Part shown: piece by piece, positions 4,208 to 22,567 of the stretch
How positions within the stretch are numbered: the stretch's first letter is position 1
Layout of the letters: the number at the start of each line of letters is the position of its first letter
IMG/VR virus record: IMGVR_UViG_3300027777_000165
Coordinates: 1-22,567 of that record
Source of the DNA: a virus
Reading direction: 5' to 3' (one strand)
DNA: 22,567 nt
Made by a program: the position numbers and the translations under genes
The notes under the pieces: generated by a model
Database searches by the model: none
The model's input: the letters and a program-made list of their open reading frames with translations, nothing else
What the model was told of the DNA's origin: nothing

Positions 4208-7200
4208 ATGAGTTCATTTGATATAAATTGTACAGTTGAGGGGGCCGCGCCAGATAATTTAACACATGAGTGCGGTGTTACCAAAAATTTTACATGGACC
4301 GGAAATGGTACACATGAAGGGCTGTCATTTTATTTAATACGAACACAATTATCGGGGCTTAAATCAACAAATAAATATAAAATACCTAAATTATTAAAAC
4401 TTTTAAAATTTACTTTTACCCCATTATCACCAAATGTTGGATTATCTAATGTTATAGTAAGGGTTAAATACAATGTAGATGGAGTTTTAAAAATATTAAA
4501 CGAATATGATTTAGGTGCAATTTCAACTCCAACATCAATATATCATCAATTACTGATGGATTCAGGTACTAAAGACAATGCTTTTATTTTGTTTGATGTA
4601 ATAACAAGTAATGGAACTAGTGGTGCAATAAATGTAGAATTAGATTGTAATCCTTCATTAATTTTAGCTGAATTTTGTAGAGGTTTTACATCTTCAACAC
4701 AATATTGCTCAACTTGTCCACAAACTATAACATATTTTAGGGAAAGATTACCAAATTTACCAATAACTGGATTAATAAATAAAAACTTAACAGATAACAC
4801 CCCATTCTTAGTTGGTCCATGGTATTATGATGAATATTTACAAACAGAAGTTAATAATGATGAAATTATAACTTTAAATGTTGGTGAAATAAATAAAAGG
4901 ACAAAGTATAGTTATAATATAACAACACATAATTTTGTAAATCAAGGTAACTGCTTGGGAACACCATATGGTTGTGGTAGCTCACAAATTACAATTCCTT
5001 TTAGTGTAAGTGATTATACTGAAAGCACACCATATATTGATGGAACACCAGGTGTTAAACCAAATGGTTTAAAATATGCAATTAAAAATGTAACGGTAAG
5101 TACTGCGACACAAAATAGATTAGTCCCAATTACAGTTGAATGTACAGATGGTGCAGAAGATGTTTCTTTATTAATTACAGATGGCCTACATGGAAATGAA
5201 GTTGGTAAAGTTTCATTTTCTTATAATTCTGGAAATGCTCCATTATATGAAATATGTACACCATTTGATTTAATTAAAGTTAGGTATAAAAAAGGTTTAG
5301 GTGCATTTTTTCAAATTGGACCTAGAGATTGGAATACTTCTAAAACTTTTTATGTTGTTACAACTAGTGGATTGGTTAATCTTAGATTAGCTGTTGGTCA
5401 AAATAAATCATATAATAGTGGAAGTGCTAATGTTAAAGTAACAATTGGTTGTGGAGATGAAATATATGGTTATGATATGGGGGTACATCCGTATTCATCG
5501 TATGATGCTTACCATAACCCAACTTTTATAACAAAACTTTGGTCTAAATTACCAATATCACAATGGTCAGGATCTACTGATAATTATTCAACAAAAGGTA
5601 ATTATATTTGGGCCGACGATTTATTATCCGCACCATCATTACCATATTTCTATGGAGATAGTGTTAGAACATCACCAACAAATAAAGTATATGAAATTGG
5701 TAATTTAATTGATAGAGAATATGGTGTTGTTATTAATTATGTTGTTGAAAAGTGGTTAATTGGTGGAACAAGTACTAATGAAATAATATGGGGACCAACA
5801 AATTGGAAAAATCTTACTGGTCAAGTTTCACCTTATTTTGCGTCTACTTTAGTTAGGGCACCTGGTGATACAACTGATTATGTTCCAGCTAACGTTCATG
5901 CATCAATGGTTGGTGTTGGTATGTTACATAAAATAATTGACAATACTAGTTTACTTGAACCATCTGTTTATTCATACCTAATGGGTTATACACCATCTGG
6001 TACTAGTGAATATTTAGCTAATAATAATTTCTTTACCACTTATGATTTTAGTAAAGAAACACACATACCTATTACTGGATTTGAACATCTAGTAAATCAT
6101 GTTACTAGAGGATATGTTACCGGAAGTAATATTCCAAATTTAAATGCGTATTTAAAAGATAATAAAGATAAATGGTGGGTGTTTGGTGGGTTAGGATTAA
6201 AAGTATTTACTGAATGGTTTGGTACTATTGGTGTCACCACTATGAATGCTGCTGGTCAAAGCCTTTTTTGGGGAAGTCTCGTACATACAATAGGACATGC
6301 AATATGGGCTATACTTGATTTTTTAGGTCCCATTTTTATTGCAGCACTTGTTGTTTTAGCGCTATATTACCTTTTTGTTCCACAAACTAAAACATTTATT
6401 GAAAAAGCAAAACTATTTAGAAAAAGATTTTCAAATAAACCATTTTTAAATTCAATAAACTCAAAAATATCTAAAAAAGATGATTTAACAACTTTTGATA
6501 CTGGAATTTATTCTGACGGCGCATATTTTTACAATATTCCATCTGATTCTACAACAGGTATTCCAACAACTAGAACATTATCATACAAATATATTGATTC
6601 AATAAAAACGTATACACAAGTTGACATATTAAATGACCCAACAAAAGTTGAATACGTTATTGACCAACATAAATTATTTTATTTATTATACATCTCAGGT
6701 AAACCAGAAAAGTATGTAAGTAATCCAACTTTATATCATAGTAATTCAATATCATTAGTAGGTCAAGCACAATCATCAACTATAACTGGTGAATTAAATA
6801 ATCCAGTTAAGATGTCTTATAGTCTTCCTTCTGGACATATTGTTTCAACAGTATCGCAACAAGACGCTGACAATCAAGCCCAAGCATATTTTAACACGTT
6901 AACAACAGCAATGGATACAAATGTTGTTTCTACCGAAAGAAAACCTAGTGTTACTAATATTGAAGTATTTTTTACACATGATTTAAAATTAGAACAATCA
7001 CCTAATTATTTTTTAATTTGGTATGAAAACTCTGATTCATTAGGTATTACTGTAAATAAAAAATTATATTATGATGTTAATGGTAAATTATCAGCATTGA
7101 ATGGATATTATAGATTTTATAAAACTAGTAATTTATTATTTTATAAAGTAGAATATGGTGTTGTAACAGATATTTTTTCAGGTACTACTAGTATGACTTC

Positions 7201-10200
7201 ACAAATACATGGTGGAACATATTATCTAAGTGGTATTGATTTAGATTATACAAGTGTATGGTTAATCAATTCATATCACCCAAAAGATTTGACACTATCT
7301 TTTGGAAATGATTTGGACAATTTAATAACAAATTGGAATACTAATTTGTTTTATAGTGGAGATACTATTAATAAAGGTATAATAAAAGATAGAACAAATG
7401 TGTATGGTCTTTATCTTTATGAAAATAATTTAACTGGCACAACATATAATGAAGCAAACGAATCTACATATAGAGAGGTTTATCCTTTTGAAAGTTTAGT
7501 ATTTACCTATCATAAGCCACATACACTTTTAATTAATACAGTAGAGGTTTGTGATTTAGACAATAGTCAAAACGGTTTAAATTTCAATGTTGTGGATACC
7601 AATGGCAATGTTTCACCAACATATGTTGGTATTACTTTTAGTGTAGATATCTATACAGGTGTAACTAATTCACATGTATTATTTGCAACAAGAATTGTAA
7701 CTATAGCCCCTAATGAAACAACAAAGTTTGTTTCATTAGACATACCATATACAGGTGGAACAATTACAAGTGCTAATATAACAACATGGCAATCATCAAA
7801 TCCATTTAATAATATTACATTTATCCAAGGTTCATTTACACAAAGCCCAGGTGTTACACCTTGTTCTTATTATACCGGTACAACATATATTGTTGATTCA
7901 TTTGGTTATGTCCAATATACTAAATTTAATGCTGGAACATATAATACATCACTAGTGGTTACAAATTTAACTGAAGGCGTATACATAATTTCAGACCCTA
8001 TCGCATATGGTTCATTAATGTCTGTTGTTGATACGAATACATATTATCCACCGGCATATATAAGAATTTTAGAAACAGGTGATTGTTACATTTTACCAAC
8101 ACCTACTCCAACACCAACACCTACGGTAACACCAAGTCATACTCCAACTCAAACCCCAACCCCAACTGTAAACTGCTCATTCGGAGTAAGTGTTGTCGTG
8201 TTATCACCAACTCCTACACCAACTGCCACTAATACCGCTACACCAACTAATACACCAACTAATACACCAACTAATACACCAACACCAACTCAAACTCCAA
8301 CTAATACACCAACTAATACACCAACCAATACACCAACACCTACTAATACATCCACAAATACACCAACCCCAACCAATACACCAACCCCAACTGTAAATTG
8401 TTCATTTGGTATTAGCGTTGTGGTATTAAGTCCAACACCAACACCAACTGCGACTAATACACCTACACCAACAAATACCCCAACTAATACACCTACACCT
8501 ACTAATACTCCGACTAATACACCAACCAATACACCAACTAATACACCAACACCCACAAATACTGCAACTAATACACCAACCAATACACCAACTCCAACAA
8601 ATACTTCTACAAATACACCAACCCCAACTAATACACCTACCCCAACTGTAAACTGCTCATTTGGTGTGAGTGTTGTTGTATTATCACCAACCCCTACTCC
8701 AACAGCAACAAATACTGCCACCCCAACTAATACACCGACAAATACACCGACAAATACTAATACCCCAACTAAAACCCCAACTAACACCCCAACAAATACC
8801 CCTACACCAACTAATACTCCAACTAACACACCTACTAACACTTCAACAAATACACCAACACCTACTAATACACCTACACCAACTAACACACCTACCCCAA
8901 CTGTAAATTGTTCATTTGGTGTGAGTGTTGTAGTATTAAGTCCAACACCAACCCCAACAAACACATCAACTCCAACTAATACACCTACACCAACTAATAC
9001 TCCGACCAATACTAATACTCCAACCAATACACCAACCCCAACCAATACACCAACCAAAACTCCAACTAACACACCAACTAACACACCAACCAATACACCA
9101 ACCAATACACCAACTAACACACCAACTAACACACCAACTAATACACCAACCAATACACCAACACCTACTAATACATCCACAAATACACCAACCCCAACTA
9201 ATACACCTACCCCAACTGTAAACTGTTCATTCGGTGTAAGTGTTGTTGTGTTATCACCAACCCCAACACCAACTCCAACTCCAACCAATACTAATACTCC
9301 AACTAACACACCTACACCTACTAATACGTCAACACCAACCAATACACCAACCAAAACCCCAACTAACACACCTACACCTACTAATACATCAACACCAACC
9401 AATACACCTACCAATACTGTTACTCCTACAAACACCACCACACCGACTAAAACACCTACACAAACACCAACTCCAACACCTTCATTACCAGCTCTTACAT
9501 TATCGGTAGGGTCTTACACACCACAATCTTGTTTTAGTGTTAATGATGGACAATTCACATTAAGTGCGGGAGGTGGTAACGGAGCATCTTATGAGTATTC
9601 TAAAGATGGTACAACATATCAAGCTAGCGCAACGTTTACTGGATTGGCGGGAACAACATATACAGGCTATGTTAGAAATACAAATAGAACGGGAACAGTT
9701 ACTTCAGTATCGGTAACATCATTAGCACGTTCAGCACCAAATGCACCTATGACTATTACAAATGCAACTTGTAATGGTGGTAACGGTTCAATTGCGGTTA
9801 GTGCTGGTTACGGTGGTTCAGGTTCGGGATACAGTGGATCAACTGATAATTCAACGTATGTCCAAATACCATATACATTTGTTAAAACGGCAGGTTCATA
9901 TACAATTTATATAAAAGACAGTTCAAACTGTGTACAATCATATAGTCAAACAATAACACAACCAACAGCTGTTACATCAACAATATCATCATATACCGCT
10001 CCATCATGTTACAACTTATCTGATGGTTCTGTAACCGCAACTGCAGGTGGAGGTGTATCACCATATACATATTCACTTAATAGTGGAACTTACCAAGCAA
10101 GCGCAACATTTAGTAGTTTAGCTAATGGAACATATAGTATTACGGTTAAAGATACTAATGGTTGTACCACAACATCATCAACAAGAACATTTGCAACAAC

Positions 10201-10993
10201 TGCACCAAATGCAACAATAACAGTTACAAATGTAAGTTGTAATGGTGGTGCGGATGGACAAATTGCAGTATCAAATGGTACAGGAGGTGCTCAGGTTGGA
10301 GGATATAGTGCTTCAACAGATAACTCAACTTGGTACGCTTTACCAAAAACATACTATAGTTTATCTGCGAGTTCACCAACTATTTACGTTAGAGATAGTA
10401 ATGGATGTGTACAATCATATCCACAAACTATAACACAACCAACAGCTCAAGTATGTACTATTTCAGTATATTCTTATGATAGTGGTGTGGGTAATGGTTC
10501 AATTGCTGTTGTTGTTTCAGGTGGTTCAGGAACTAAAACACTAAAATTGTATGAAGATACGTCAGCACCATATACTGACTACTCAGTAGATAGTTTGATA
10601 CAAAGTGGCACTTCTGTTGCTAATAATACAACATACTATTTCACAAACGTACCTTGTACTAATAACAAATATTGGGTTCAATGTATTGACGCAAATGGTT
10701 GTGTAATACATTCTAGTTCATCTGTTATGGTTTGTGGTTATTTTAATACAGCCGCACAATTTAAAACAGGAAATAATTTATCATGTACCCCAACACCTGA
10801 TACTCAAATTTTCTTAAGAGGAGGTTCTGATTATACAACTTTTAATGCGAATGGTTATATATCGGCTGGAATGATACTATATACCAATGCTAATGGAACA
10901 ATTTATCCATATAATACAATTTTTGATAGTGTCGCCTTAACGGTTTTCAACGTATCATCAGGAATAGTAGGAACAGTTAGATCTTTATGTTAA
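4208..10993 (+). CDS. Giant virion adhesin with hydrophobic helix, Pro/Thr stalk and SprB-like repeats
   Basis: A 2261-residue protein. Residues 1-680 are beta-rich, with Cys-bounded segments ending in patterns such as NVELDC and VTIGC. Residues about 705-724 form a strongly hydrophobic helix ([14 protein letters not shown]) followed by a Lys/Arg-rich stretch, as in a membrane span. Residues 730-1296 are again mostly beta. Residues 1297-1759 are a Pro/Thr/Asn stalk interrupted five times by a 13-residue VNCSFG cassette. Residues about 1762-2175 hold five SprB-like repeats (CNGG...GSIAV, ending TQPTA), a family known from Flavobacterium gliding adhesins. The last 85 residues form a Cys-ending module (RSLC). 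No Shine-Dalgarno is seen; the leader is TTATAATAT just before ATG. It is likely a long displayed fibre or tail-tip protein that binds the host surface. The role of the hydrophobic helix is unknown. The large size and low-complexity centre warrant an assembly check. Confidence 0.8.
8096..9484 (+). repeat. Pro/Thr/Asn low-complexity stalk, built on a 12-bp TPTN-coding unit
   Basis: About 1.39 kb encoding repeats of Thr-Pro-Thr-Asn and Thr-Pro-Thr-Pro. A conserved cassette, VNCSFG(V/I)SVVVLS, recurs at 8168, 8393, 8648, 8903 and 9218, giving periods of 75, 85, 85 and 105 residues. Outside the cassettes the + strand is nearly free of G. The unit is a multiple of three, so expansion or contraction keeps the frame. 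Pro/Thr stalks of this kind generally form extended, unfolded spacers. Confidence 0.92.
9491..10735 (+). repeat. Five SprB-like repeats
   Basis: Protein-level repeats of about 75-90 residues start near 9491, 9749, 9971, 10214 and 10448. The second and fourth are most alike: both have CNGG near the start, CVQSY near the end and finish QTITQPTA. The first and third form another pair sharing YQASATF. The alternation suggests duplication of a two-repeat block. The motif pattern matches the SprB repeat family of Bacteroidota surface adhesins; I judged this by eye. Confidence 0.75.
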
Positions 10994-11011
10994 AAATTGT
11001 TAAAAATAAGA

Positions 11012-11020
11012 TATTTATAA
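11012..11020 (+). promoter_or_regulatory. Recurrent GATATTTATA leader motif, copy 1
   Basis: TATTTATAA preceded by AAGA lies in the 51-base gap before the 231-residue gene. The same AAGATATTTATA string occurs before the starts at 11821 and 17163. It could be a phage late-promoter element or part of a Shine-Dalgarno-free initiation region; the sequence alone does not decide. Confidence 0.4.
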
Positions 11021-11044
11021 TAAAAGAAATTAAAATTTAAAAAA

Positions 11045-11740
11045 ATGGGACCAGGCAATTCTACAACAAACGTTACTTTACAATTAACAGGGACATCATC
11101 CGTTCCAAATAACTTCAATATTGAAATCTTTGCTTGGAATATAACAACAGATTTAGTATCGACAACAGGTAGAACATATGCCTCAACCGTATCAAGAACA
11201 ACAACATCATCATTAAATGGAGGTACTTTGCTTAATGGTTATGGAATATCGGGTATAACGGGTACCGATAGATATGTTAAATTAACAAGTACAACCACAT
11301 GCACTAGTGATAGTGGTTTAATAAGTATTGAATCTGCAGCATTATCGGTATATACCCCACCTGTTGTTAGTAATTATTCGGCACCAGGAGCCGAAGATAC
11401 TTTCGCCACTCAAGGACCAAGTAATTATTTATCATCTGGTGTTCACAATATAGCATCATTTGATTCGTTATCTTATATATCCGCATCAGATTTTACTGTG
11501 TCTTATCTTAGTGGAACCACCGTATCTGGAGCCGTATATGTAACAGGAACATATCAATATGGTCCATTTAGTAGTTTAACTGTAGTTCAATCTGGAAAAT
11601 CATTTAGTGTAAATGGTTCTCCAAACACATCGTTTATAGGTGACGCATCTCTCCACATTTTAGGTAGGGTACAATTAACATACACTCCTTCTGGAAAATC
11701 TACCACTTTTGATTATTATTATCGACCATGGACAACTTAA
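11045..11740 (+). CDS. Putative virion structural protein, 231 residues
   Basis: I do not recognise the family. The protein is rich in Ser, Thr, Gly and Tyr with alternating beta-strand patterns, typical of phage tail decorations. Two halves are separated by a Pro-rich hinge near residue 105 (VYTPPVVSNYSAP). It has one Cys and no membrane segment. The start is the first ATG after an A-rich leader and gives a complete frame. It sits between the giant adhesin and the baseplate-like genes, behind a copy of the recurrent leader motif, so it may begin a transcription unit. The function is inferred from location only. Confidence 0.65.
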   Translation: MGPGNSTTNVTLQLTGTSSVPNNFNIEIFAWNITTDLVSTTGRTYASTVSRTTTSSLNGGTLLNGYGISGITGTDRYVKLTSTTTCTSDSGLISIESAALSVYTPPVVSNYSAPGAEDTFATQGPSNYLSSGVHNIASFDSLSYISASDFTVSYLSGTTVSGAVYVTGTYQYGPFSSLTVVQSGKSFSVNGSPNTSFIGDASLHILGRVQLTYTPSGKSTTFDYYYRPWTT

Positions 11741-11793
11741 AATAGCTATTTATTTACATTAAATTAATCTTTATATTATCTAAAACCTAATAA

Positions 11794-11804
11794 AGATATT
11801 TATA
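11794..11804 (+). promoter_or_regulatory. Recurrent GATATTTATA leader motif, copy 2
   Basis: AGATATTTATA lies in an 80-base gap, the longest inside the structural block, 17 bases before the ATG of the 185-residue gene. The same gap also holds CTATTTATTTACATT near 11746, a looser variant. The distance to the start would allow a transcription start just upstream of the gene. Confidence 0.4.
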
Positions 11805-11820
11805 GGTGTAAATAATTTAT

Positions 11821-12378
11821 ATGTCAGATTTATTTGGAAGTATGTCTTTTTATGTTCCGTCTTACCCAATGTCGGGTGAAACTCAATCTGTAGTTATACA
11901 AAATTATTTAAATGATTATGAATACACTCCAACAACGGGATATACCACAACAGGGTTTACCTATTTAGGTATTGGAGGTAGTAAGCTATCCGAATTAAAA
12001 AAATACGGAGCAACAGGATATACACAAACATTAACAAGTGGTTCTATGGAAGATGGAACAACTTGGACAGGTTATACATTTGGATATACTCATAATACAA
12101 CCGGTTCAACTACTTTACAATACAGAGATTATTCCGATGGATATACAATGATTACAGGTAATACCACAGGGTTTACCAAGGAGGAAGTTATTAACTATAC
12201 CCTAACAAGAAATGAACATTTTTTGGGTTTTGTGGAACAACCTACTGTTTATTCGGACGTTTTTGTGGAACGAGGTAAATTGGGAGTTATGGAAAGGAAC
12301 TTTAGGTTAAGTGAAATTGATAGTATGGGTGAATTGAGTATATATGGAAATGGGTATTTTAAAGTTAGAAAACAATAA
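11821..12378 (+). CDS. Putative tail or baseplate protein, 185 residues
   Basis: The family is not recognised with certainty. Residues 1-125 are Tyr/Thr/Gly-rich beta sequence. The last 60 residues (from NEHFLGFVEQP to the end) are more charged and look like the conserved core: VFVERGKLGVMERN followed by a short beta hairpin around YGNGYFKVRKQ. It is followed after 25 bases by the 302-residue gene and then the large gpI-like protein, so a small baseplate wedge or connector is plausible. No Cys and no membrane segment are present. The ATG at 11821 is the first in frame and has no Shine-Dalgarno. Confidence 0.65.
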   Translation: MSDLFGSMSFYVPSYPMSGETQSVVIQNYLNDYEYTPTTGYTTTGFTYLGIGGSKLSELKKYGATGYTQTLTSGSMEDGTTWTGYTFGYTHNTTGSTTLQYRDYSDGYTMITGNTTGFTKEEVINYTLTRNEHFLGFVEQPTVYSDVFVERGKLGVMERNFRLSEIDSMGELSIYGNGYFKVRKQ

Positions 12379-12392
12379 GATTTATATTTATT
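12377..12392 (+). promoter_or_regulatory. AAGATTTAYATTTATT motif overlapping a stop codon, copy 1
   Basis: The string overlaps the TAA of the 185-residue gene and lies 11 bases before the next ATG. A copy differing at one base (C for T) overlaps the TAA at 19166. Both resemble the GATATTTATA leader motif with three or four extra bases. A shared regulatory role is possible but unproven. Confidence 0.35.
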
Positions 12393-12403
12393 AATAAAAG
12401 AAA

Positions 12404-13312
12404 ATGGCAGTAGGATCATATGGTATTGTAAGACCCGCAGATGTATCACCAGCAGACGTAGAGATATTATATCATTACGTTTCAAGTAGAACTGCGAACG
12501 TTACACCAACATTAACAAAATTAGATTCCACAGCAATATTAACGCCGGTGTTTCATAATGAAACGACAGGTGGTGTTGCAAATAAAGAAATTTTAGGTGG
12601 TTTATATAATCTGAAATTACAATCGGGTCAATTTTCAGAATTAGGAATTTACACATTACATTTACGTCCTAAACAAGTTAGGACAAATATTATGGATTGC
12701 GGAGTTTTAGCGTCACTTCCATCAGTTAGAGGTTTAGTCATTGACATTGGTAATGTACCGGTTGACGACCAAGGAAAATTCACACCACAAGGATTAGTTG
12801 GATATAGAATTGAATATATTAATAAGACCAATTACCAAAAAGTTCCAAACTTTTATAGATTGGTAACTTCATCTTTTTATTGTGTACCAACTACTGCAAA
12901 TTTATCAAACTCAACAGATAAGGCGATTAGGTATCAATATACCGATTCCCAATCTAACTTTATATTTTTAACAGTAACACCAAGTTCATCACCTTCAAGT
13001 AGACCAAATGTGGTTCCATTTATTGGTGAACCAGGTCAAAGTATTATTTTAACAAATACATTTTTCAATCCAACAACGGTTGAAATTGAAATGGTTGAAC
13101 ATGATGCATCAACATTGGCACACGCGCTTTACGGTGACCAAACTAAGGCAATTGCTCCAGGTATTTACACAATCTACGATAAAGATAAAAATATCTATAA
13201 ACAATACAATCTTTACGAAATTAAAGACCAATTTAATGATACATTATATGAAGTTCGTGAAGAAAGAACAAGTATAGATGAAACTTTAAATTTAGATAAC
13301 ATAACAGGATAA
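12404..13312 (+). CDS. Putative baseplate or tail structural protein, 302 residues
   Basis: I do not recognise a named family. The protein is a mix of beta sequence with a conserved-looking middle (LGIYTLHLRPKQ near residue 83, then a stretch around VRGLVIDIGN), a low-complexity SSSPSSRP linker near residue 200, and a charged C-terminus that looks helical (YEVREERTSIDETLN). Its TAA overlaps the ATG of the next gene by one base (TAATG), so the two are probably translationally coupled and made in fixed ratio. That favours a partner of the large baseplate-like protein downstream. There is no Shine-Dalgarno; the leader is AATAAAAGAAA. Confidence 0.68.
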   Translation: MAVGSYGIVRPADVSPADVEILYHYVSSRTANVTPTLTKLDSTAILTPVFHNETTGGVANKEILGGLYNLKLQSGQFSELGIYTLHLRPKQVRTNIMDCGVLASLPSVRGLVIDIGNVPVDDQGKFTPQGLVGYRIEYINKTNYQKVPNFYRLVTSSFYCVPTTANLSNSTDKAIRYQYTDSQSNFIFLTVTPSSSPSSRPNVVPFIGEPGQSIILTNTFFNPTTVEIEMVEHDASTLAHALYGDQTKAIAPGIYTIYDKDKNIYKQYNLYEIKDQFNDTLYEVREERTSIDETLNLDNITG

Positions 13313-16300
13313 TGGCTAAAGTAAGATATAAAGTTCCAAATGAGGCTGCTAGTGGTGTAGAAACATTTAGTGATAAATTAGTTGGTACACAGATTACTGA
13401 TGGTACTAGTCAACTGACTAATACAAACTTTGATATCAATAGAGTCATTCCTGAAAAAGATAGTAAGAATTTTAAATCACAACCCTTTTCTAATTTCTTA
13501 ACATTAAATGATTTAAAAGGAAAATTGAACACTACAACACAAAATGGTAATGTAAAGAAAAAAGAAAAAATTAAATTTAAAGGTGGAATTAACGACGCAG
13601 GTAAATCTTTATATGGTTCATTAAAACAAAGATTACAAGTATCAATATCAAACATCATTACAAATTTTCCGGCTGCTATATTAGTTGATAAAGATAGTCC
13701 TATTAAAAGTATTCCATATACATTATCTGAAATAACTTATAGTGAAAGTGCAAAGACAACTGAATTTTATATTCAGAAATCAATTTTATTTAATCCATTT
13801 GACATTACGCTCATTAAACCATTAAGTAATACTTTACCTACTGTTGATAATACGATTAGAAATTTTTATTCCTCATATACAAAATATGTTTTAGTATATG
13901 AGAATGTTACATATGATATTATTTCATACACAGAACCTGACGCGTCAAATTTAATTAAATTAAAAGTTAAAGGAAAACCATTTACAGGTTTAACCATAAA
14001 TGATAGTGTTTTAATAAGACCAAATAACGGAATCACTGAAGAATTTTTTAGTGGTTTAGATGATTTAGAAACTCTTTTATTAAATCGAGAAAGTAATCCA
14101 ATATATCAAGCGAGCTTCAAAGTACCTAAAGAAAGTTTAGATGAAACTAAAACTGAAATTGTTAATGTATATGTTAACTGGCCAACAACTAAAGATGGTT
14201 GGAATTTACAAATAGTTGGTATCGATTACGCCGATTACATTAGCCAATTAAGTAGTTTAGGTGATGAAATTGACGATTATAAATCTAATTTAATTGTAAG
14301 ATTTTTAACCGCACCTCAATTATTTGAGTTTGATACTGATGACCAAAAGGCACAATCTATATTTCAATTATACGGTCAATCATTCGATAAAGTAAAAAAA
14401 TATATAGATAACATTGCTTACATGCGTAATGTAAGTTATGACGGAATAAATAATGTTCCAGATATATTATTAAAAAATCTTTCACAAACATTAGGGTTAT
14501 CTACCATTAATTTATTTGACGAAAAAACATTAGAAGATACTTTATACTTAAGACAAGATACTGTGTTTGATGGTGTATCAGTAGGTAAAACTTTAGTGGA
14601 AGCTGAATATGAATTTTATAGGAGATTATTAGTTAATCTTGCTCACATATATAAATCAAAAGGAACGAGAGCATCTTTAGAATTTTTCTTAAAGTTTATC
14701 GGGGCACCAGAACCAATGATTAAAATTAATGAATTTGTTTATAATGTAACGTCATTACCAAGACGTTTGTATGATAACAATAGTAGTCAATCACAACTTG
14801 AAACGGATTTATATGATGTAATACAAGGTTCTACAAACCAAATTCAAATTACTGGATACACATTTAGTAGTAGTGAGTATACATATTTAACTGGTTCTGT
14901 GGCAAGTACATCAACATTAACAAGAGATGAATACCCAATTGATTCAAACGGACAACCAAGAAAAACAACAAACACTCAAAGTGATATATTTTTTGGAAAA
15001 GGTTCTGGTTGGTATGATACCACACTTGAACATAGGTCATCAGATATAATTGATACACATTTATCTAGCGGTTCATTTGTTAATGGTGTGTTCCAATTAA
15101 CAGGTAGAACTAAGACAATTAAAACAATGTCAAAACCATACACACATGGTGAAGATTATTTTGACACATTTAGAACATTACCTGGATTAGATTATGGATT
15201 TGGATTAACATCAAAAATTGACAATACAAAAATTAATGTAAGTAACCAACAACTTATTTTAAATAGAAAAAATATTAATGTTCATTTATCACCAGCACAA
15301 ACTGTTGATTATGACATCTACCGTCAATCTAGAAATTTAAATCTATCTTTTGGTTCTGCAACACTTTCACCTCAAACAGGTGTAACATTTGCTGAATTTC
15401 TTGATAGTGCATTAAATCAATTGATAACAAATTCAAATGTAATAAAATATAAAAATAATTACATTATTTTAGAAGATGTATATCAAGATTATATCACTAA
15501 TAAATATGGAACAAATTATGGTTATGTTCCATATGACCATATTTCATTAACTGAATTTATAAATAAAATGGGACCTTATTGGGTTCAAGTTATTGAACAG
15601 TTTATCCCATCAACTACACAATGGACAGGTGGTAATTTAATAGAGAATAATAAATTTGGTAGGTCAAAATATAAGTATAAAAAACCATGTCAAATATTTG
15701 AATTTGTTGATAATGTTTACCCACAACCAACAGGTAATACTTACTCAACACAATTTGAAGAAGAAATTATTAATTTATCTAGTTTTTATGCTGCGGACGA
15801 TGATTTAAATTATGATGGTTATTTACAATTATATCCTATTTTTGAAATTGACGGTATAACATATAGAGGACCAAGTGACCCTAATAATGTTTATGCGTTA
15901 GGTCAAACAACGGGATGTACATATGCATTAGTTAGTGGAACAACTACGGTTCCAAATGTTAGTGTTAGATTATATAAAGGAAATGGTACTAATGCTTTAG
16001 AAATACCAATGTCCAATTCTGATATAACACAATTAAAATCATTATGGAAAACTGCAATAATAAATACAGTTAATTATATTAACACAGTTTCGGGACAAAC
16101 AGGAAATATTTTAGGTAAAGATACCGATTATGGAACATTAATAGGAAATTCAACCATCACCGGACAAACAATACAATCTATTTTGTCTTATGAATTTTTC
16201 ACTGGAAAAACTGGAGAAGAGTTTGTAAAATTTAAATCGTACAAACATGGTCCACATAGTTGTACTGTGATAAATTCATTTAATTTTATGGTAGGATATG

Positions 16301-17136
16301 GTACTAGTGCCGTTGACCCAACCCCAACTCCAACCCCAACACCGACTCTTACACCAACAAATACCCCAACTAACACCCCAACTAATACAAATACACCAAC
16401 TAACACATCAACTAATACACAGACCCCAACTAAAACTCCGACTAACACCCCAACAACAACCAATACACCAACCAATACATCAACACCGACTCCAACTCCA
16501 ACATCAACAACAGATACTCTACCAATCGGGTCAACACTCATTTACCTATCAAGTGGAACCACAATAGTTAATGCTTGTACTGGTACAACTCAATCGTATT
16601 ATTATCAAACACCAAATCCACCAACAATCCCAAATTTTAGTTTTGAGGGTGTAAAAATATTTACGGACCCAACATTATTAACACCAGCATTGGGAAGTCC
16701 TGGTTTTACTAAATATTATTATTCATCTGATTATAATACATTATATTATGTTAGTGATAGTGAAGGTAGAAAATACGTTAGTAACACACCTTGTCCAACC
16801 CCAACCCCAACAACGGGTACTGTAATTAACGCAGTTGTAAGTTTAATTACTGGACAAACTGCATGTGACGGAGGAGATTATGGAGACGCTCCATCGAATG
16901 ACCCATTAGTAGACCCCAAATTTTTTACCTTTACAATCTATGGAAGTAATATTGTAAATGCAACTGCAATAATTAATATACCGGCTTTTTTACTTGCGGA
17001 TTTTGTAGATAATCAAGTATTTTATGTAAAAGGAAGGTCTTCTGGCACATTCTATTGGAGAAAATTTATTTTAAGTGGATCACCAAGTCCTACCGCAATT
17101 GCTAATTCATCTGGTATCGCGGTATTGTGTGTATAA
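13312..17136 (+). CDS. Large baseplate/tail protein with gpI-like segment, Pro/Thr stalk and C-terminal adhesin modules
   Basis: A 1274-residue protein. Residues about 330-475 contain an aromatic helical region followed by AHIYKSKGTRASLEFFLKFIG (KGTR at 450-453). This resembles the core of P2 gpI-type baseplate proteins and the large wedge proteins of T4-like phages. Residues 476-1000 are mixed alpha/beta. Residues 1003-1067 are a Pro/Thr/Asn stalk with the same unit as the giant adhesin. After it come two modules (about 1068-1162 and 1170-1274), each with a Cys near its middle and one near its end; the protein ends VLCV. A baseplate protein with a stalk and displayed modules is unusual: the modules may project from the baseplate and touch the host. 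The start overlaps the upstream stop by one base. Assignment to T4 gp7 specifically is not justified by eye. Confidence 0.75.
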   Translation: MAKVRYKVPNEAASGVETFSDKLVGTQITDGTSQLTNTNFDINRVIPEKDSKNFKSQPFSNFLTLNDLKGKLNTTTQNGNVKKKEKIKFKGGINDAGKSLYGSLKQRLQVSISNIITNFPAAILVDKDSPIKSIPYTLSEITYSESAKTTEFYIQKSILFNPFDITLIKPLSNTLPTVDNTIRNFYSSYTKYVLVYENVTYDIISYTEPDASNLIKLKVKGKPFTGLTINDSVLIRPNNGITEEFFSGLDDLETLLLNRESNPIYQASFKVPKESLDETKTEIVNVYVNWPTTKDGWNLQIVGIDYADYISQLSSLGDEIDDYKSNLIVRFLTAPQLFEFDTDDQKAQSIFQLYGQSFDKVKKYIDNIAYMRNVSYDGINNVPDILLKNLSQTLGLSTINLFDEKTLEDTLYLRQDTVFDGVSVGKTLVEAEYEFYRRLLVNLAHIYKSKGTRASLEFFLKFIGAPEPMIKINEFVYNVTSLPRRLYDNNSSQSQLETDLYDVIQGSTNQIQITGYTFSSSEYTYLTGSVASTSTLTRDEYPIDSNGQPRKTTNTQSDIFFGKGSGWYDTTLEHRSSDIIDTHLSSGSFVNGVFQLTGRTKTIKTMSKPYTHGEDYFDTFRTLPGLDYGFGLTSKIDNTKINVSNQQLILNRKNINVHLSPAQTVDYDIYRQSRNLNLSFGSATLSPQTGVTFAEFLDSALNQLITNSNVIKYKNNYIILEDVYQDYITNKYGTNYGYVPYDHISLTEFINKMGPYWVQVIEQFIPSTTQWTGGNLIENNKFGRSKYKYKKPCQIFEFVDNVYPQPTGNTYSTQFEEEIINLSSFYAADDDLNYDGYLQLYPIFEIDGITYRGPSDPNNVYALGQTTGCTYALVSGTTTVPNVSVRLYKGNGTNALEIPMSNSDITQLKSLWKTAIINTVNYINTVSGQTGNILGKDTDYGTLIGNSTITGQTIQSILSYEFFTGKTGEEFVKFKSYKHGPHSCTVINSFNFMVGYGTSAVDPTPTPTPTPTLTPTNTPTNTPTNTNTPTNTSTNTQTPTKTPTNTPTTTNTPTNTSTPTPTPTSTTDTLPIGSTLIYLSSGTTIVNACTGTTQSYYYQTPNPPTIPNFSFEGVKIFTDPTLLTPALGSPGFTKYYYSSDYNTLYYVSDSEGRKYVSNTPCPTPTPTTGTVINAVVSLITGQTACDGGDYGDAPSNDPLVDPKFFTFTIYGSNIVNATAIINIPAFLLADFVDNQVFYVKGRSSGTFYWRKFILSGSPSPTAIANSSGIAVLCV
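16318..16512 (+). repeat. Pro/Thr/Asn stalk in the baseplate-like protein
   Basis: About 65 codons of Thr-Pro-Thr-Asn/Pro repeats in a near G-free + strand. Unit and codon choice match the stalk at 8096-9484, which lies about 7 kb upstream in another gene. Here the conserved VNCSFG cassette is absent. Confidence 0.9.
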
Positions 17137-17145
17137 AAATTAAAG

Positions 17146-17158
17146 AAAGATATTTATA
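17146..17158 (+). promoter_or_regulatory. Recurrent GATATTTATA leader motif, copy 3
   Basis: AAAGATATTTATA lies only four bases before the ATG at 17163. If this were a promoter -10 element, the transcript would start at or inside the gene. At this site the motif therefore fits an initiation-region signal better, unless it drives a leaderless message. Confidence 0.4.
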
Positions 17159-17162
17159 ATAT

Positions 17163-19166
17163 ATGAGTTTTTTAAATAGTAACGACGCAGAGTATTTATC
17201 GGCAAGAATAACCCAAAAGGGTAGAAATGCAATTGCAAAGGGAGCATTTGATATCAGTTATTTCACAATTGGTGATTCTGAATATAACTATAATATGACA
17301 GGAACAACAGGTTATCAATCTGTGTTCGCACCATTAGATAAAGAAACACATGTTAAATATCCATTTCAATATACAAGTGGAACCACAATTTACGGTGTTC
17401 CGGTAAATCAAACCACCGAACCCACAACATTGAGAAATCAAATTGGACCCGCTGGTTTTATATCTGATTATTCAGGTACAACAAGTCGTAGTACAATTCA
17501 ATGTTTACATAAAAAAATAGACATATCATCTTTTAGTGGGACCACATCAATTACCGTTACCGGTATGACAGTAGGAACGACATATAGTGATTGTCAATAT
17601 ATCACGTTAGCACTTAACGAAGCAAAAATATCGGGTAACATATTAACAGGAAAAACGAATAGTTTAACATATAAAATAGTATCTGTTAGTGGGTTAACAA
17701 CAACAAGTGAAAAATTAACATTAGATAGACCTATACTCAAATTGGGAGGTACTGTGGACATCATTTGTAATAAATGTGAATTAGAAAATCCAATTGAAAA
17801 TGTAGAAAATACCGACCAACATAATCCATGGACTATGAATATTGTTTGGGGTAAAAAACCAATCGGTATTCCAGATAGTGCACCATATAGAAATTTATCA
17901 GGTTATACTAGTAACAAATATATAGGAGTAAAGGAATTTTTAGGATATGGAAGTACAGGGCAATCTTTTACTGATTTTACCGGAGGAACAATTACAGGTA
18001 CGTCATTTGTAAATTCTTTTGGTGATATTATTGAACATACATCGGAAGAACAAAGAGCAATCGCAATTGTACATTTCTCCGAAATTGGTGATTTATCAAA
18101 TGACCCAGATAGGTTCTTTAAATATGACGATTATATCGGTACCGAAACTAACGATAGAACATACTTCCAAGTTTATTTACCATTCTTACTTTACCATAGA
18201 AATACAGGTTCAACCGTAGGTGCAATTTTTAATATGGGAAGTGACGTTAAATTTATAGTTTCAACATTAAATAATAATTCACAAATTGAATATCGTGATT
18301 TGTTAGATGAGATGGGTAATAAAGTAGGTAAAGTATTTGTTAATAATAAAACTATAGTATTTGATGATGAAGAAATTGTTGCGGCATTAGATTATAAATC
18401 TAATAGACATCACACATTACCAGCACCAAAATTAGGATTAACGTCACCAACAGGTAACACCCATATGTTATCAGGAACAGGAACAACAATGTGGATGACT
18501 TACGGATTTGGTGGGTCAAATACAACAACAATACCACTTAGATCATTACCATGTAATTATGTTTCAAAAATAAACGGAACTAATGATACATCAAATGTCA
18601 CATTTAAATTTGGTAATGAATTTTCAAATTTAAAAATAAATAGTGACTTGACAAATGGATTTTTAGCAAATGAGTTTTTTGCTTTAGTACAAACAGGTAT
18701 AACAACAGGAACACCCATCAATAGTGAATGGAAAAAAATTAATTTAACATCTACAGATTTACAAACTTCAACATATATTGACCCAACAAAATTAACAGGA
18801 GTAACATTTACGATTACAAAAGAGATGTACGATGGTGGAAGTACATTTAATTTAACTGAAGACCCACATATGATTGGTAAAGTTAATTTTACAGATACTA
18901 CAGCTCCACATTTTGGTGATGAACAACCATTCCCTGGAAGTATTAAATTAGTACGAGCCTCAGATATTGAAGAAATGAATTTCTTGGTTAATCTACCAAC
19001 AGGTAAATTTACAACATCACAAAACCCAACATATACAAGTGGAGACCCTATAATCACTGAAGTTGCGTTACTTAATAACAATAAAGAAGTGATGGTTAAA
19101 GCAAAAACAAGTAAACCAATCAAAAGAACTGGAACTCAAGTATTTGCGGTTAAATTGGATTTCTAA
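17163..19166 (+). CDS. Virion structural protein, probable baseplate component, 667 residues
   Basis: The first 45 residues (ITQKGRNAIAKGAFDI, then YFTIGDSEYNY) follow a pattern common at the N-termini of phage tail and baseplate proteins: a kinked helix, then a strand containing GDSE. The central part is beta-rich. The last 85 residues (from FPGSIKLVRASDIEEMNF to the end) form a compact domain with NPTY and ITEVALLN motifs that looks strongly constrained. It follows the large gpI-like protein after 26 bases, with the recurrent leader motif in between. It is the last structural gene before the replication block. By position it could correspond to T4 gp8 or another wedge protein, but I see no decisive match. 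No membrane segment or signal peptide. Confidence 0.7.
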   Translation: MSFLNSNDAEYLSARITQKGRNAIAKGAFDISYFTIGDSEYNYNMTGTTGYQSVFAPLDKETHVKYPFQYTSGTTIYGVPVNQTTEPTTLRNQIGPAGFISDYSGTTSRSTIQCLHKKIDISSFSGTTSITVTGMTVGTTYSDCQYITLALNEAKISGNILTGKTNSLTYKIVSVSGLTTTSEKLTLDRPILKLGGTVDIICNKCELENPIENVENTDQHNPWTMNIVWGKKPIGIPDSAPYRNLSGYTSNKYIGVKEFLGYGSTGQSFTDFTGGTITGTSFVNSFGDIIEHTSEEQRAIAIVHFSEIGDLSNDPDRFFKYDDYIGTETNDRTYFQVYLPFLLYHRNTGSTVGAIFNMGSDVKFIVSTLNNNSQIEYRDLLDEMGNKVGKVFVNNKTIVFDDEEIVAALDYKSNRHHTLPAPKLGLTSPTGNTHMLSGTGTTMWMTYGFGGSNTTTIPLRSLPCNYVSKINGTNDTSNVTFKFGNEFSNLKINSDLTNGFLANEFFALVQTGITTGTPINSEWKKINLTSTDLQTSTYIDPTKLTGVTFTITKEMYDGGSTFNLTEDPHMIGKVNFTDTTAPHFGDEQPFPGSIKLVRASDIEEMNFLVNLPTGKFTTSQNPTYTSGDPIITEVALLNNNKEVMVKAKTSKPIKRTGTQVFAVKLDF

Positions 19167-19181
19167 AGATTTACATTTATT
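19166..19181 (+). promoter_or_regulatory. AAGATTTAYATTTATT motif overlapping a stop codon, copy 2
   Basis: The string starts in the TAA of the 667-residue gene and lies in the 38-base gap before the resolvase gene. It differs at one position from the copy at 12377-12392. The gap is otherwise pure A/T-rich leader without a Shine-Dalgarno. Confidence 0.35.
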
Positions 19182-19204
19182 TTAATTTACATTATATTAG
19201 AATT

Positions 19205-19819
19205 ATGAATGATAATTTAATAAAATTAAAAAATAAACCAAAAATTTTAGGACTTGATATTAGCACAAAAGTTATCGGGTTTGCTTTGTTTGATATTTCA
19301 GGTTCTAAACTATTAGAACTAACACATTTTTCCCCAAAAATAAAACCACAACCTGAAGATAAGTTGGAAGAACTTATGATGAAAGCTAATGCTTTTCAAA
19401 AACATTTGGAGAGTTATAAGAATATGGGTATTACTCGTGTCATCATTGAGGAACCTTTGTTAAATTCAAATAACGTTTATACAGTAGGGACATTATTGAG
19501 ATACAATACAATGATATGTAAATTGATTTATGATATTTTTGAGATTGTCCCAACATTCATTTCAACGTATAACGCAAGAAAATATGCATTTCCTGATTTG
19601 GTAGGACCAAATGATAAAGGACGTAATGTATTATTTGGTGGTTATCCAAAAGACATAGATAAGAAACAAGTTATTTGGGATCATGTTAATGATGTGTGTC
19701 CCGATGTTCAATGGTTGTATGATAAGAATGGTAAATTGAAAAAAGAAAATTTTGATATGAGCGATGCAGCAACCGCAGTTATTGGTCACTTCAATATGAT
19801 AAAACAATTGGATAAATAA
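19205..19819 (+). CDS. RuvC-like Holliday junction resolvase
   Basis: A 204-residue protein with the RNase H-like fold signature of RuvC resolvases. The first strand carries the acidic residue in LGLDIST (Asp18). The second acidic site is IIEEP (Glu82/Glu83). The C-terminal pair is in DMSDAATA (Asp184, Asp187). These residues bind the two metal ions that cut branched DNA. Length fits the RuvC family. In phages such enzymes resolve recombination or replication junctions before packaging. It is the first nucleic-acid enzyme after the structural block and is followed by a strong terminator, so it probably belongs to the upstream transcript. There is no Shine-Dalgarno before its ATG. The family call is confident; the exact substrate is inferred. 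Confidence 0.85.
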   Translation: MNDNLIKLKNKPKILGLDISTKVIGFALFDISGSKLLELTHFSPKIKPQPEDKLEELMMKANAFQKHLESYKNMGITRVIIEEPLLNSNNVYTVGTLLRYNTMICKLIYDIFEIVPTFISTYNARKYAFPDLVGPNDKGRNVLFGGYPKDIDKKQVIWDHVNDVCPDVQWLYDKNGKLKKENFDMSDAATAVIGHFNMIKQLDK

Positions 19820-19872
19820 TATTTGGCAACTTATATTTTATATTACGATTTATCAATGATATATTTAATAAT

Positions 19873-19948
19873 AGGACGGGACAAGGGTTAAAAGCCTTGT
19901 TTGGTTGGTAGGAGGTCAGCGGTGGTGTGCTGGCCTCCATTTTTTTTT
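19873..19948 (+). ncRNA. Possible small structured RNA in a G+C-rich island
   Basis: About 65 bases of G+C-rich DNA stand out sharply in an A+T-rich genome. It holds a hairpin at 19881-19900 (ACAAGG paired with CCTTGT), a G/T-rich linker, and the terminator hairpin at 19911-19938 with nine T residues after it. No open reading frame of note is present. Two stems ending in a terminator fit a short phage RNA, or a structured 3' end of the resolvase message. The boundaries are guesses. Confidence 0.4.
19911..19948 (+). terminator. Rho-independent terminator between resolvase and primase
   Basis: GGAGGTCAGC pairs with GCTGGCCTCC over 10 base pairs with a single G-T wobble. The loop is eight bases (GGTGGTGT), and the stem is followed by A and nine T residues (19940-19948). 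It should end transcription coming from the structural genes and resolvase, and so separate them from the primase operon. Confidence 0.88.
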
Positions 19949-19976
19949 ATAAGATTTTTTTGTTATAATATACAAC

Positions 19977-20918
19977 ATGAACACCCAAGAAGTAGATTAT
20001 TCCGCAGTATTTGAAATTTTGGAAGACATATTTGGTGACTATAAGAATCATAATGATTATAGATACCAAGTGTCTTTTGATTGTCCTGTGTGTTCTCATG
20101 AAATAAAAGGATTAGAAAAAGGTGATGGTAAGGGCAATTTGGAAATCAATTACAAATACGGTGTTTATAAGTGTTGGGTATGTGCCGAATCTCACGAAAC
20201 ACACGGTTCAATATATAAGTTAATTAAGAAGTTCGGTAACCCTAAACAACTTAAAAAATATATTCTTTTAAAACCAGAAGAAGATGAGGATGGGAATAAA
20301 AAAGAATATAAACCAGTTAAATTACCAAAAGAATTTATTTCATTTAAAGACGCAAGTTTTGGAATGAAATTAACACCAGGATATAAGCAGGCACTCAATT
20401 ACATCAAAAAAAGAAATATAACAGATTTGATGTTACAACTTTATAATATTGGATTTTGTGCTACAGGACCTTATGAAAATAGAATTATCATTCCTTCATA
20501 TGATGAAAACAGAAGATTGAATTATTTTATTGCTCGTTCCTTTTTAAATAAAACGAAGAGAAAATATATGAACCCCGTGGTACAAAAGGAAATCATTATT
20601 TTCAATGAAAGTTTAATTAATTGGGACGAACCTGTTTATATAGTTGAAGGTGCGTTCGATAGTATTTTCATTCCAAATGCAATCCCAATGTTAGGAAAGT
20701 TTATGGGTGAACATTTATTTAAAAAACTATATGATAATGCAAAAAAAATTATTATAGTACTTGACCCTGACGCCTATAATGACCAAGAGAGATTATATCA
20801 TAGATTAAATTGTGGAAAACTGATGGGGAAAGTGTGGAGTATTAAATTAGAGGGAGACAAAGATATTGCTGATTTACAAGGAAACTTAAGTGAATATAAA
20901 ATGAAACAAATAGAGTAA
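19977..20918 (+). CDS. DNA primase, DnaG/T4 gp61 type
   Basis: A 313-residue protein with the two hallmarks of bacterial-type primases. At the N-terminus a zinc-binding domain has CPVC (Cys36, Cys39) and CWVC (Cys66, Cys69). A Toprim catalytic core follows, with VEGAFDS (Glu224) and LDPDAY (Asp263, Asp265), the metal-binding acidic residues, and a downstream DIADL that may complete the site. It makes short RNA primers on single-stranded DNA for lagging-strand synthesis, together with a replicative helicase that is not in this window. The length is close to T4 gp61 and well short of full bacterial DnaG, so the C-terminal helicase-binding domain is absent or minimal. It starts 29 bases after the terminator and is followed after one base by the RecB-like nuclease, so it appears to head a replication operon. 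Confidence 0.88.
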   Translation: MNTQEVDYSAVFEILEDIFGDYKNHNDYRYQVSFDCPVCSHEIKGLEKGDGKGNLEINYKYGVYKCWVCAESHETHGSIYKLIKKFGNPKQLKKYILLKPEEDEDGNKKEYKPVKLPKEFISFKDASFGMKLTPGYKQALNYIKKRNITDLMLQLYNIGFCATGPYENRIIIPSYDENRRLNYFIARSFLNKTKRKYMNPVVQKEIIIFNESLINWDEPVYIVEGAFDSIFIPNAIPMLGKFMGEHLFKKLYDNAKKIIIVLDPDAYNDQERLYHRLNCGKLMGKVWSIKLEGDKDIADLQGNLSEYKMKQIE

Positions 20919-20919
20919 C

Positions 20920-21789
20920 ATGAATTTAAAAGACATCTCATTAGAGATAAACGATTTATTAGAAAAGAGAAGACAAGAATTAGAATTAACATTCATAGAA
21001 GAAGAACACATTTACTATATGAAAGATATTGATGGTGAAATTAAAAAGAACTTTCCATCCGTATCTAAAGTAGTTAAGAAATTTCACAAACCATTTGATG
21101 CTGATGGTATGGCACTTAAAATGGCAAAAGGAGACCCTGAAGGACAATCACAATTACTTGCCGAATGGAAAGAGGCTGGCGACTTATCAACCAATATGGG
21201 AAGTAGAGTTCACTTTGAATTGGAGAAAGATTTAATTGGTCGTTTTGGCAATTACAAAGAAGTTAGACAACCAATATTTGAAATTAATGAGGAACAACAA
21301 CGCAAAAGTGATGCAATGATTAAAGCGGGAAAAGATTTTCTTAATTTAATGTTAGAACGAGGAGGGGTATTATTAGATACTGAGATTGTATTAGGAGACC
21401 CAACAGAACAATACACGGGTCAACCCGATAAGTGTTGGTTGATGCAAAATAAAACAAAAGATGATTTTGGATTTGTAATAACAGATTGGAAAAGTAATAA
21501 GCCAAAGAACTTTGAGGTACATCACTACACTGGTAGATTATATCCACCATTTAATAATTTTCATGATAATGCCTTAGGTCATTATTATTTACAATTACCA
21601 TTATATGGTCGATTGTTGCGTAAGATGTTAGAAGGAACAAAATATTCCGATACTAAATTATTAGGTGGAGTTATAGTTCTTTTAAAAGAAGACGGAACAT
21701 TTACCGAATATAAAGTTCCACCACAAATAACAAATGCAATCCTTACAATGGATTTATCAAAATATATTTCAAGATGGTCAAAAAAATAA
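20920..21789 (+). CDS. RecB-like PD-(D/E)XK nuclease
   Basis: A 289-residue protein with the motif order of RecB-family nucleases: an N-terminal strand-turn-strand with FPSVSKVVK; GSRVHFELE (Gly94, His98, Glu100/102); GQPD (Asp170); the catalytic TDWKSNK (Asp189, Lys191); and QLPLY (Gln225, Tyr229). Such single-domain phage nucleases act in recombination, end resection or host DNA breakdown. A Cas4-like iron-sulfur cluster is not supported, since only one Cys (in DKCW) is evident. The gene starts one base after the primase stop and overlaps the following nuclease gene by 16 bases, so all three are likely co-translated. The fold call is confident; the biological role is inferred. Confidence 0.85.
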   Translation: MNLKDISLEINDLLEKRRQELELTFIEEEHIYYMKDIDGEIKKNFPSVSKVVKKFHKPFDADGMALKMAKGDPEGQSQLLAEWKEAGDLSTNMGSRVHFELEKDLIGRFGNYKEVRQPIFEINEEQQRKSDAMIKAGKDFLNLMLERGGVLLDTEIVLGDPTEQYTGQPDKCWLMQNKTKDDFGFVITDWKSNKPKNFEVHHYTGRLYPPFNNFHDNALGHYYLQLPLYGRLLRKMLEGTKYSDTKLLGGVIVLLKEDGTFTEYKVPPQITNAILTMDLSKYISRWSKK

Positions 21790-22567
21790 TACACATTGCC
21801 GACTTACATATTCGTACAATTCAAATGCATGATTTGTATAGAGAACAATTTGAAACATTAATTGATGAGATACGAGAACATAATATTGTGTGGCATCAAG
21901 AAGGTATTGAATATGAAGAAATTCGTATCGTTGTTGCAGGGGACCTGGCACATCAGAAAATAAATATTTCTAATGAACAGTTATTATTAACAAGTTGGTT
22001 TTTAAAAGAGTTATCCAAATACGGTAAAGTTGTTATCATACCGGGTAATCACGATTTCTTAGAGAATAACACACAACGATTAGATAGTATAACACCAGTG
22101 GTTCAATTATTAGACGACCCAACTATTGTTTACTATAAAGATAGTGGTGATTATATTGATGAAAATATTCAATGGGTTGTTTATTCATTATATCAACATA
22201 ACGCACGTCCTGAATTTACAAAAGACGAAACTAAATTAACTATTGGATTATTTCACGGACCTATTATGGGATTATCGACTGACTTGGGATACGAATTTGA
22301 AGATGCATATGATAGGTTAAACTTTGTTGATCTGGATTTATTGTTATGTGGTGACATTCATAAGAGACAACAATTCACATTACCAAACGGAGGTCATGCA
22401 ATCATGGTCGGTAGCCTCATTCAACAAAACTTTGGTGAGACAGTTAAACATCACGGATATGGTATTTATGATGTGGAAACAAATGAATATACATTTCATG
22501 ATTTGGACAACGAACAACCGTTTCTTCATTTCTCAATAAACGATATAAAAGACATTGAAGATGGAAA
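21774..22567 (+). CDS. SbcD/Mre11-like nuclease subunit, T4 gp47 type (3' partial)
   Basis: The frame opens at ATG 21774, inside the end of the RecB-like gene, and is still open at the window edge; 264 residues are visible. It shows the metallophosphoesterase motif series: IADLH (Asp10, His12), AGDL (Asp57), GNHD (Asn92, His93, Asp94), FHG (His161) and CGDIHKR (Asp194, His196). This is the Mre11/SbcD/gp47 pattern, a two-metal nuclease that works with an SbcC/gp46-type ATPase on DNA ends and hairpins. In T4 this pair is needed for recombination-dependent replication. The ATPase partner would be expected just downstream, outside the window. The start is chosen because the DLH motif lies about ten residues in, as usual for the family. 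Confidence 0.9.
   Translation, partial: MVKKIIHIADLHIRTIQMHDLYREQFETLIDEIREHNIVWHQEGIEYEEIRIVVAGDLAHQKINISNEQLLLTSWFLKELSKYGKVVIIPGNHDFLENNTQRLDSITPVVQLLDDPTIVYYKDSGDYIDENIQWVVYSLYQHNARPEFTKDETKLTIGLFHGPIMGLSTDLGYEFEDAYDRLNFVDLDLLLCGDIHKRQQFTLPNGGHAIMVGSLIQQNFGETVKHHGYGIYDVETNEYTFHDLDNEQPFLHFSINDIKDIEDG

Follow-up and report, generated by a model that had tools for sequence, protein, structure and literature searches.

The window, i.e. the whole stretch of DNA that was analysed, is a 22,567-base fragment from an IMG/VR record, and this contig itself carries neither sheath nor Gp23 genes. On its plus strand, an open reading frame at 13312–17136 encodes a protein of 1274 aa, and a Pro/Thr stretch and a tip form the 3' end of this gene. 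The order along the protein is a core (residues 1 to about 800), a variable middle domain (about 801–995), a stalk (1003–1067) and a tip of 202 aa (Table 1). Position 16318 corresponds to codon 1003, and Pro1003 is the first residue of the stalk. A preliminary description had taken the first thousand or so residues for a baseplate or tail core, followed by a Pro/Thr stalk and two Cys-containing modules. The stalk and the two modules, each with a cysteine pair, were confirmed, and a structural protein of the baseplate region is upheld by a family that adjoins gp6 and gp25 and by relatives with sheath and Gp23 genes (see below). The length given for the core was not: the universal part spans about 800 residues, and residues 801–995 or so form a further domain that is missing in many homologues.

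Table 1. Features of the 1274-aa gene and of its two neighbours in the window.
Feature	Position	Strand	Remark
Conserved baseplate-region core, residues 1–800	13312..15711	+	47 plus at least 342 homologous IMG/VR loci
Inferred recombination zone, residues ~641–680	15232..15351	+	Phylogenies conflict before vs after the zone
Variable intermediate domain, residues 801–994	15712..16293	+	Missing in core-only and core+stalk homologues
Pro/Thr(Asn) stalk, residues 1003–1067	16318..16512	+	Pro and Thr content far beyond chance
Tip module 1, residues 1073–1160; Cys1089, with Cys1161 at its end	16528..16791	+	
Short CPTPTPTT linker joining the tip modules, residues 1161–1168	16792..16815	+	
Tip module 2, residues 1169–1274; Cys1185 and Cys1273	16816..17133	+	
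Upstream 302-aa partner gene	12404..13312	+	Synteny anchor; 97–98% identity in relatives with a stalkless core or another tip
Downstream 667-aa gene, highly divergent	17163..19166	+	Directly after the tip in the window

Residues 995–1072 (78 aa) contain 36 Thr and 17 Pro. In the richest segment of 78 aa, Pro and Thr together reach 54, versus a mean maximum of 22.8 and a highest value of 29 in 500 composition-preserving shuffles. Each tip module contains two cysteines, which makes four in all (1089, 1161, 1185 and 1273). Long antisense and alternate-frame ORFs in the region, among them the antisense one at 16188–16541, were dismissed as by-products, or shadows, of the repeat.

In two relatives, L006 and L011, the upstream 302-aa gene is 97–98% identical to that of the window, and the RuvC-like and primase genes 96–99%, against only about 40–44% for the gene directly after the core gene. 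This downstream gene (17163–19166) shares about 40–50% identity between close relatives whose neighbouring genes reach 96–99%; this hypervariable gene follows a separate tip gene in L022, L021, L043 and L340. Elsewhere in the window, the ORF at 4208–10993 encodes a protein of 2261 aa whose long Pro/Thr stretches are interrupted by five near-identical beads, VNCSFG(V/I)SVVVLS; it also has a weak DUF5977 match. C-x-F beads like these are also present in the stalks of the core homologues L016, L033 and L046. The ORF at 2–2335 encodes a protein of collagen-like repeats (Pfam Collagen, E=2.7e-57), which also matches CBM_5_12 weakly.

The core family and its position near gp6

A first scan of IMG/VR yielded 47 homologous loci, and a profile scan yielded at least 342; the core is common to all of them as far as their contigs reach. 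The core profile also matched the large gene located two or three places after gp6 in Flavobacterium phage immuto, Microcystis phage Mel-JY01 and LR756508.1. After iteration it matched all 80 of the 80 IMG/VR relatives of this immuto-type gene, with E values from 1e-61 to 1e-103, and nearly all of these distant loci align in two colinear blocks (residues ~186–515 and ~686–801). The same two blocks carry the homology to immuto_161, WWT39511 of Mel-JY01 and the 1400-aa protein of LR756508.1, which differ from the window core by an identity of only about 20% and by a longer stretch between the blocks. Among distant loci with enough upstream DNA to be testable, 62 of 63 had a gp6-like gene 1.4–4 kb upstream of the core homologue. 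Because the distant homologues follow gp6, the core is a member of a baseplate-region family. By homology, it is assigned to an unnamed and widespread family of contractile, T4-like environmental phages.

A family profile that includes the distant members matches neurexin LamG domains, and one of these members, L198, has a weak Laminin_G_3 match between the two blocks. In the distant family (L145–L224) the longer inter-block stretch, together with the LamG match, hints at a lectin-like insertion inside a baseplate protein.

By their gene content, the window's relatives are classified as large T4-like contractile phages. Among six large relatives, five encode the contractile sheath (PF04984, Phage_sheath_1) and four the T4 Gp23 capsid protein (PF07068), both being present in G001, G002 and G005. 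Cultured relatives of the gp6 gene are found in immuto and Mel-JY01, at 25–28% identity. In a relative of 203 kb, gp25 and gp6 are followed by genes of 1423, 230, 589, 268, 306 and 303 aa, then by the core homologue, and finally by variable genes, one gene of 723 aa and one that is RuvC-like. Six genes separate gp6 from the core in the window's clade, unlike the close gp6 spacing of the distant family.

Database searches gave the core no established name. No convincing match to any Pfam, PHROG or PDB sequence family was obtained, and tblastn of the core against phage records gave no match. Profile comparison (hhalign) with Tevenvirinae gp7 returned a probability below 1%, with a shallow gp7 profile (Neff 2.3) and without a positive control. 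That with P2 gpI likewise remained below 1%, again without a positive control and with gpI entered as a single sequence; its IMG/VR relatives were too similar for profile building. A first structural model of the core, built from 22 sequences, was useless (pLDDT 43). A second one, from 113 sequences, reached a pLDDT of 66.9 and had no significant match in the PDB. The best phage match of the core in the PDB, a 1031-aa chain from a baseplate entry of Klebsiella phage KP1, was not significant (E=0.023) and is a hint only. In a fold search of BFVD, the sole significant matches were uncharacterised phage proteins, one of them named 'Binding domain, N-terminal'. Neither a fibre family nor a fibre chaperone domain was found in the 1274-aa protein. 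A scan of genome contigs returned one fragment, in an archaeal MAG, which gives no host inference.

Variable extensions and a tip found on several proteins

Architectures were surveyed in 62 non-redundant homologues (<98.5% identity). A Pro/Thr stalk was present in 35 and absent from 20, the remaining seven being cut by contig ends; the presence of stalk and modules, variable as the preliminary description had asked to have checked, thus differs among homologues. The same description held that core baseplate proteins seldom carry long stalks, which does not apply to this family, where 35 of 55 classifiable homologues are stalked. Twelve homologues end right after the core, 12 consist of core and stalk, 12 of core, intermediate domain and stalk, 11 of core, long intermediate and stalk, and eight of core and intermediate domain without stalk. 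Among complete genes of the family, the shortest have about 790 aa and the longest at least 2296. On the core tree, a minimum of 10 changes is needed to explain stalk presence, and a minimum of 18 to explain architecture. A conserved structural core is therefore accompanied by extra modules in some homologues and by none in others.

The window's own tip had no Pfam or PHROG family match. A scan of 34 tips of the family detected one VWA domain, one SprB repeat match and one weak Por secretion tail. The VWA and SprB tips provide support of the adhesin type, yet they are isolated matches among the 34. The core homologue of L035 ends in its von Willebrand factor A domain (13905–14714) after a very long Pro/Thr stalk, and L033 has the same architecture up to the tip, which is unrelated. 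In L142 the tip of the core homologue (11575–12249) resembles 66 other ORFs of the fetched loci. SprB repeats occur in a gliding adhesin of Flavobacteria, and the SprB match, which in our reading may be that of L142, is a possible hint at a Bacteroidota host.

In the fetched set, the 202-aa tip was found in no core protein besides those of L004 and L005, except for a weak match of 32% in L340. It was found on other proteins. In L022 (76% identity) and L340 (62%) it makes up the C-terminal portion of a separate gene that directly follows the one for the core, and a more distant match occupies the same C-terminal position in a separate downstream gene of L021 and L043. In all four loci a Pro/Thr stretch precedes the tip, and homology begins at the border between stalk and tip. 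In L337 and L338 the tip (79% over 182 aa) is attached, via a Pro/Thr stalk, to a baseplate-region protein of 541 aa, encoded between gp6 and the core. For L337, the contig is shared with L044, where the core homologue has 818 aa and no extension; the replication genes of this contig are 91–97% identical to those of the window. The base form of the 541-aa protein measures 252–296 aa, and about 27 homologues include five with a Pro/Thr stalk extension. In L122 (1358–3868) this base form makes up the C-terminal part of an ORF of 837 aa and seems to be fused to a partner on its N-terminal side. Across these independent contexts the tip keeps 62–79% identity over about 180–200 aa, as well as its cysteines. 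Because they occur on two or more baseplate-region proteins and also in a stand-alone gene, stalk and tip behave as a portable cassette. The modules had been described beforehand as displayed, and a tip shared with other proteins is what one would expect if parts of the adhesin type are on display. That the tip recurs on a different tail-base protein or in a separate gene suggests that surface-contact parts are swapped between structural proteins of first contact.

Signs of exchange were also found within the core gene. In the window protein, residues 1–640 cluster with L006, L009, L011, L013 and L014 (support 100). Residues 681–800 reject this grouping in an AU test (p=0.0002), which used 115 columns and a quick tree, the group having been picked from the N-terminal tree; they are nearest to homologues with core, intermediate domain and stalk. 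As judged from these trees, the two segments have conflicting histories. The label of the intermediate domain changes nine times on the N-terminal tree versus five times on the C-terminal tree, a drop that would be expected from joint transfer of the C-terminal block and the intermediate domain.

A probable baseplate protein with a proposed display cassette

The reading that we favour, with a probability of roughly 0.7, is that the product of this gene is a structural protein at the periphery of the baseplate in a large T4-like contractile phage and bears an optional C-terminal display cassette, made of a flexible Pro/Thr stalk and a two-module Cys tip. The comparison of homologues shows that the family can do without the cassette, and that gain, loss and exchange of the cassette do not follow the history of the core. 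The tip is best read, by analogy, as a putative host-surface-binding part shown from the baseplate. The core would be anchored in the wedge. Since wedge-region proteins occur several times in a contractile tail, multiple tips would be displayed around the baseplate. The stalk would act as an extended, flexible spacer, and the tip may reversibly contact glycans or proteins of the host surface, which could aid adsorption or broaden the host range. The Pro/Thr coding repeats may serve as exchange points. A test of whether exact DNA repeats have a particular part in such exchange gave no support beyond codon constraint: the longest exact match between two of the window's Pro/Thr stretches (24 nt) does not exceed that of codon-shuffled controls.

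Could the joint between stalk and tip have been created during assembly, by fusion of the contigs of two phages within the Pro/Thr repeat? The window does contain further Pro/Thr repeats, in the ORF at 4208–10993. Contigs of two other metagenome records nevertheless cross the junction without a gap: L004 is 99.5% identical over 8038–22566, and hence a distinct strain, and L005 is 99.99% identical over 10507–22567, both being gapless across the whole gene. Because these near-identical contigs run through unbroken, the joint is not chimeric, and the chance of an artefact is considered negligible. Rather more weight, while still unlikely, is given to the proposal that the protein is not a wedge subunit, and is instead a fibre-anchoring or fibre-like protein within the baseplate cluster, stalk and tip being the tail fibre. 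The 1423-aa gene between gp6 and the core in the window's clade and the failure to match gp7 or P2 gpI speak for it. It is opposed by the many phages in which the conserved core of about 800 aa stands alone, fibreless, by the location of the distant family in the wedge gene block, and by the lack of any fibre family or fibre chaperone domain in the protein.

It is also improbable, more so than a fibre, that the Pro/Thr stretch and the tip arose neutrally, through expansion of repeats and fusion of genes, and are devoid of a binding role. Such an origin would fit the highly variable presence of the extension and the nature of the repeats, which are low-complexity DNA, and the 24-nt match mentioned above, no longer than in the shuffled controls, points the same way. 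However, a by-product would hardly keep 62–79% identity over about 180–200 aa plus its cysteines in independent contexts, and folded tips of many kinds are found repeatedly at this position.

Similar additions have been described in other phages. In the Bacillus myophages Vp4 and Deep-Blue, baseplate wedge 3 likewise exists in a short structural form and in a long, module-bearing form: Vp4 Gp119, which has carbohydrate-binding folds, binds cells, whereas its module-free Deep-Blue homologue, Gp177, does not (PMC11406892). The modules of Gp119 are recognisable carbohydrate-binding folds; in contrast, the window tip is carried by a Pro/Thr stalk, has no family match and also occurs on other proteins. 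Evolved Dit proteins of skunaviruses, which restore adsorption (PMC10688798), similarly represent an optional binding domain added to a conserved structural protein of the tail tip. They belong to siphophages of Gram-positive hosts and result from an internal insertion, whereas the window has a stalked cassette at the C-terminus. In Pseudomonas phage K8, GP075, a putative wedge variant, is an accessory receptor binder beside the tail fibre (PMC9887876); its changes are point changes and small duplications, unlike the added cassette of the window. A literature search for Pro/Thr stalks in phages found no papers. Optional binding modules on baseplate proteins are already known from Vp4 Gp119 and evolved Dit, and the distinguishing trait here is the portable stalked tip.

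Tentatively, and with odds that we place below even, the observations could reflect a general stalk-and-tip system, in which a library of folded tips circulates, with Pro/Thr coding repeats as exchange points, among several structural baseplate proteins and stand-alone adhesin genes, altering the set and geometry of host contacts without altering the tail fibres. Annotation usually treats baseplate proteins as conserved scaffolding and takes host range solely from the tail fibres. In the present case, scaffold proteins of widespread environmental phages that have no cultured close relative carry interchangeable modules resembling contact parts. Natural pairs with and without the module, such as the window and L044, make its role directly testable, and host-range prediction and annotation would need to include inspection of the C-termini of wedge-region proteins.
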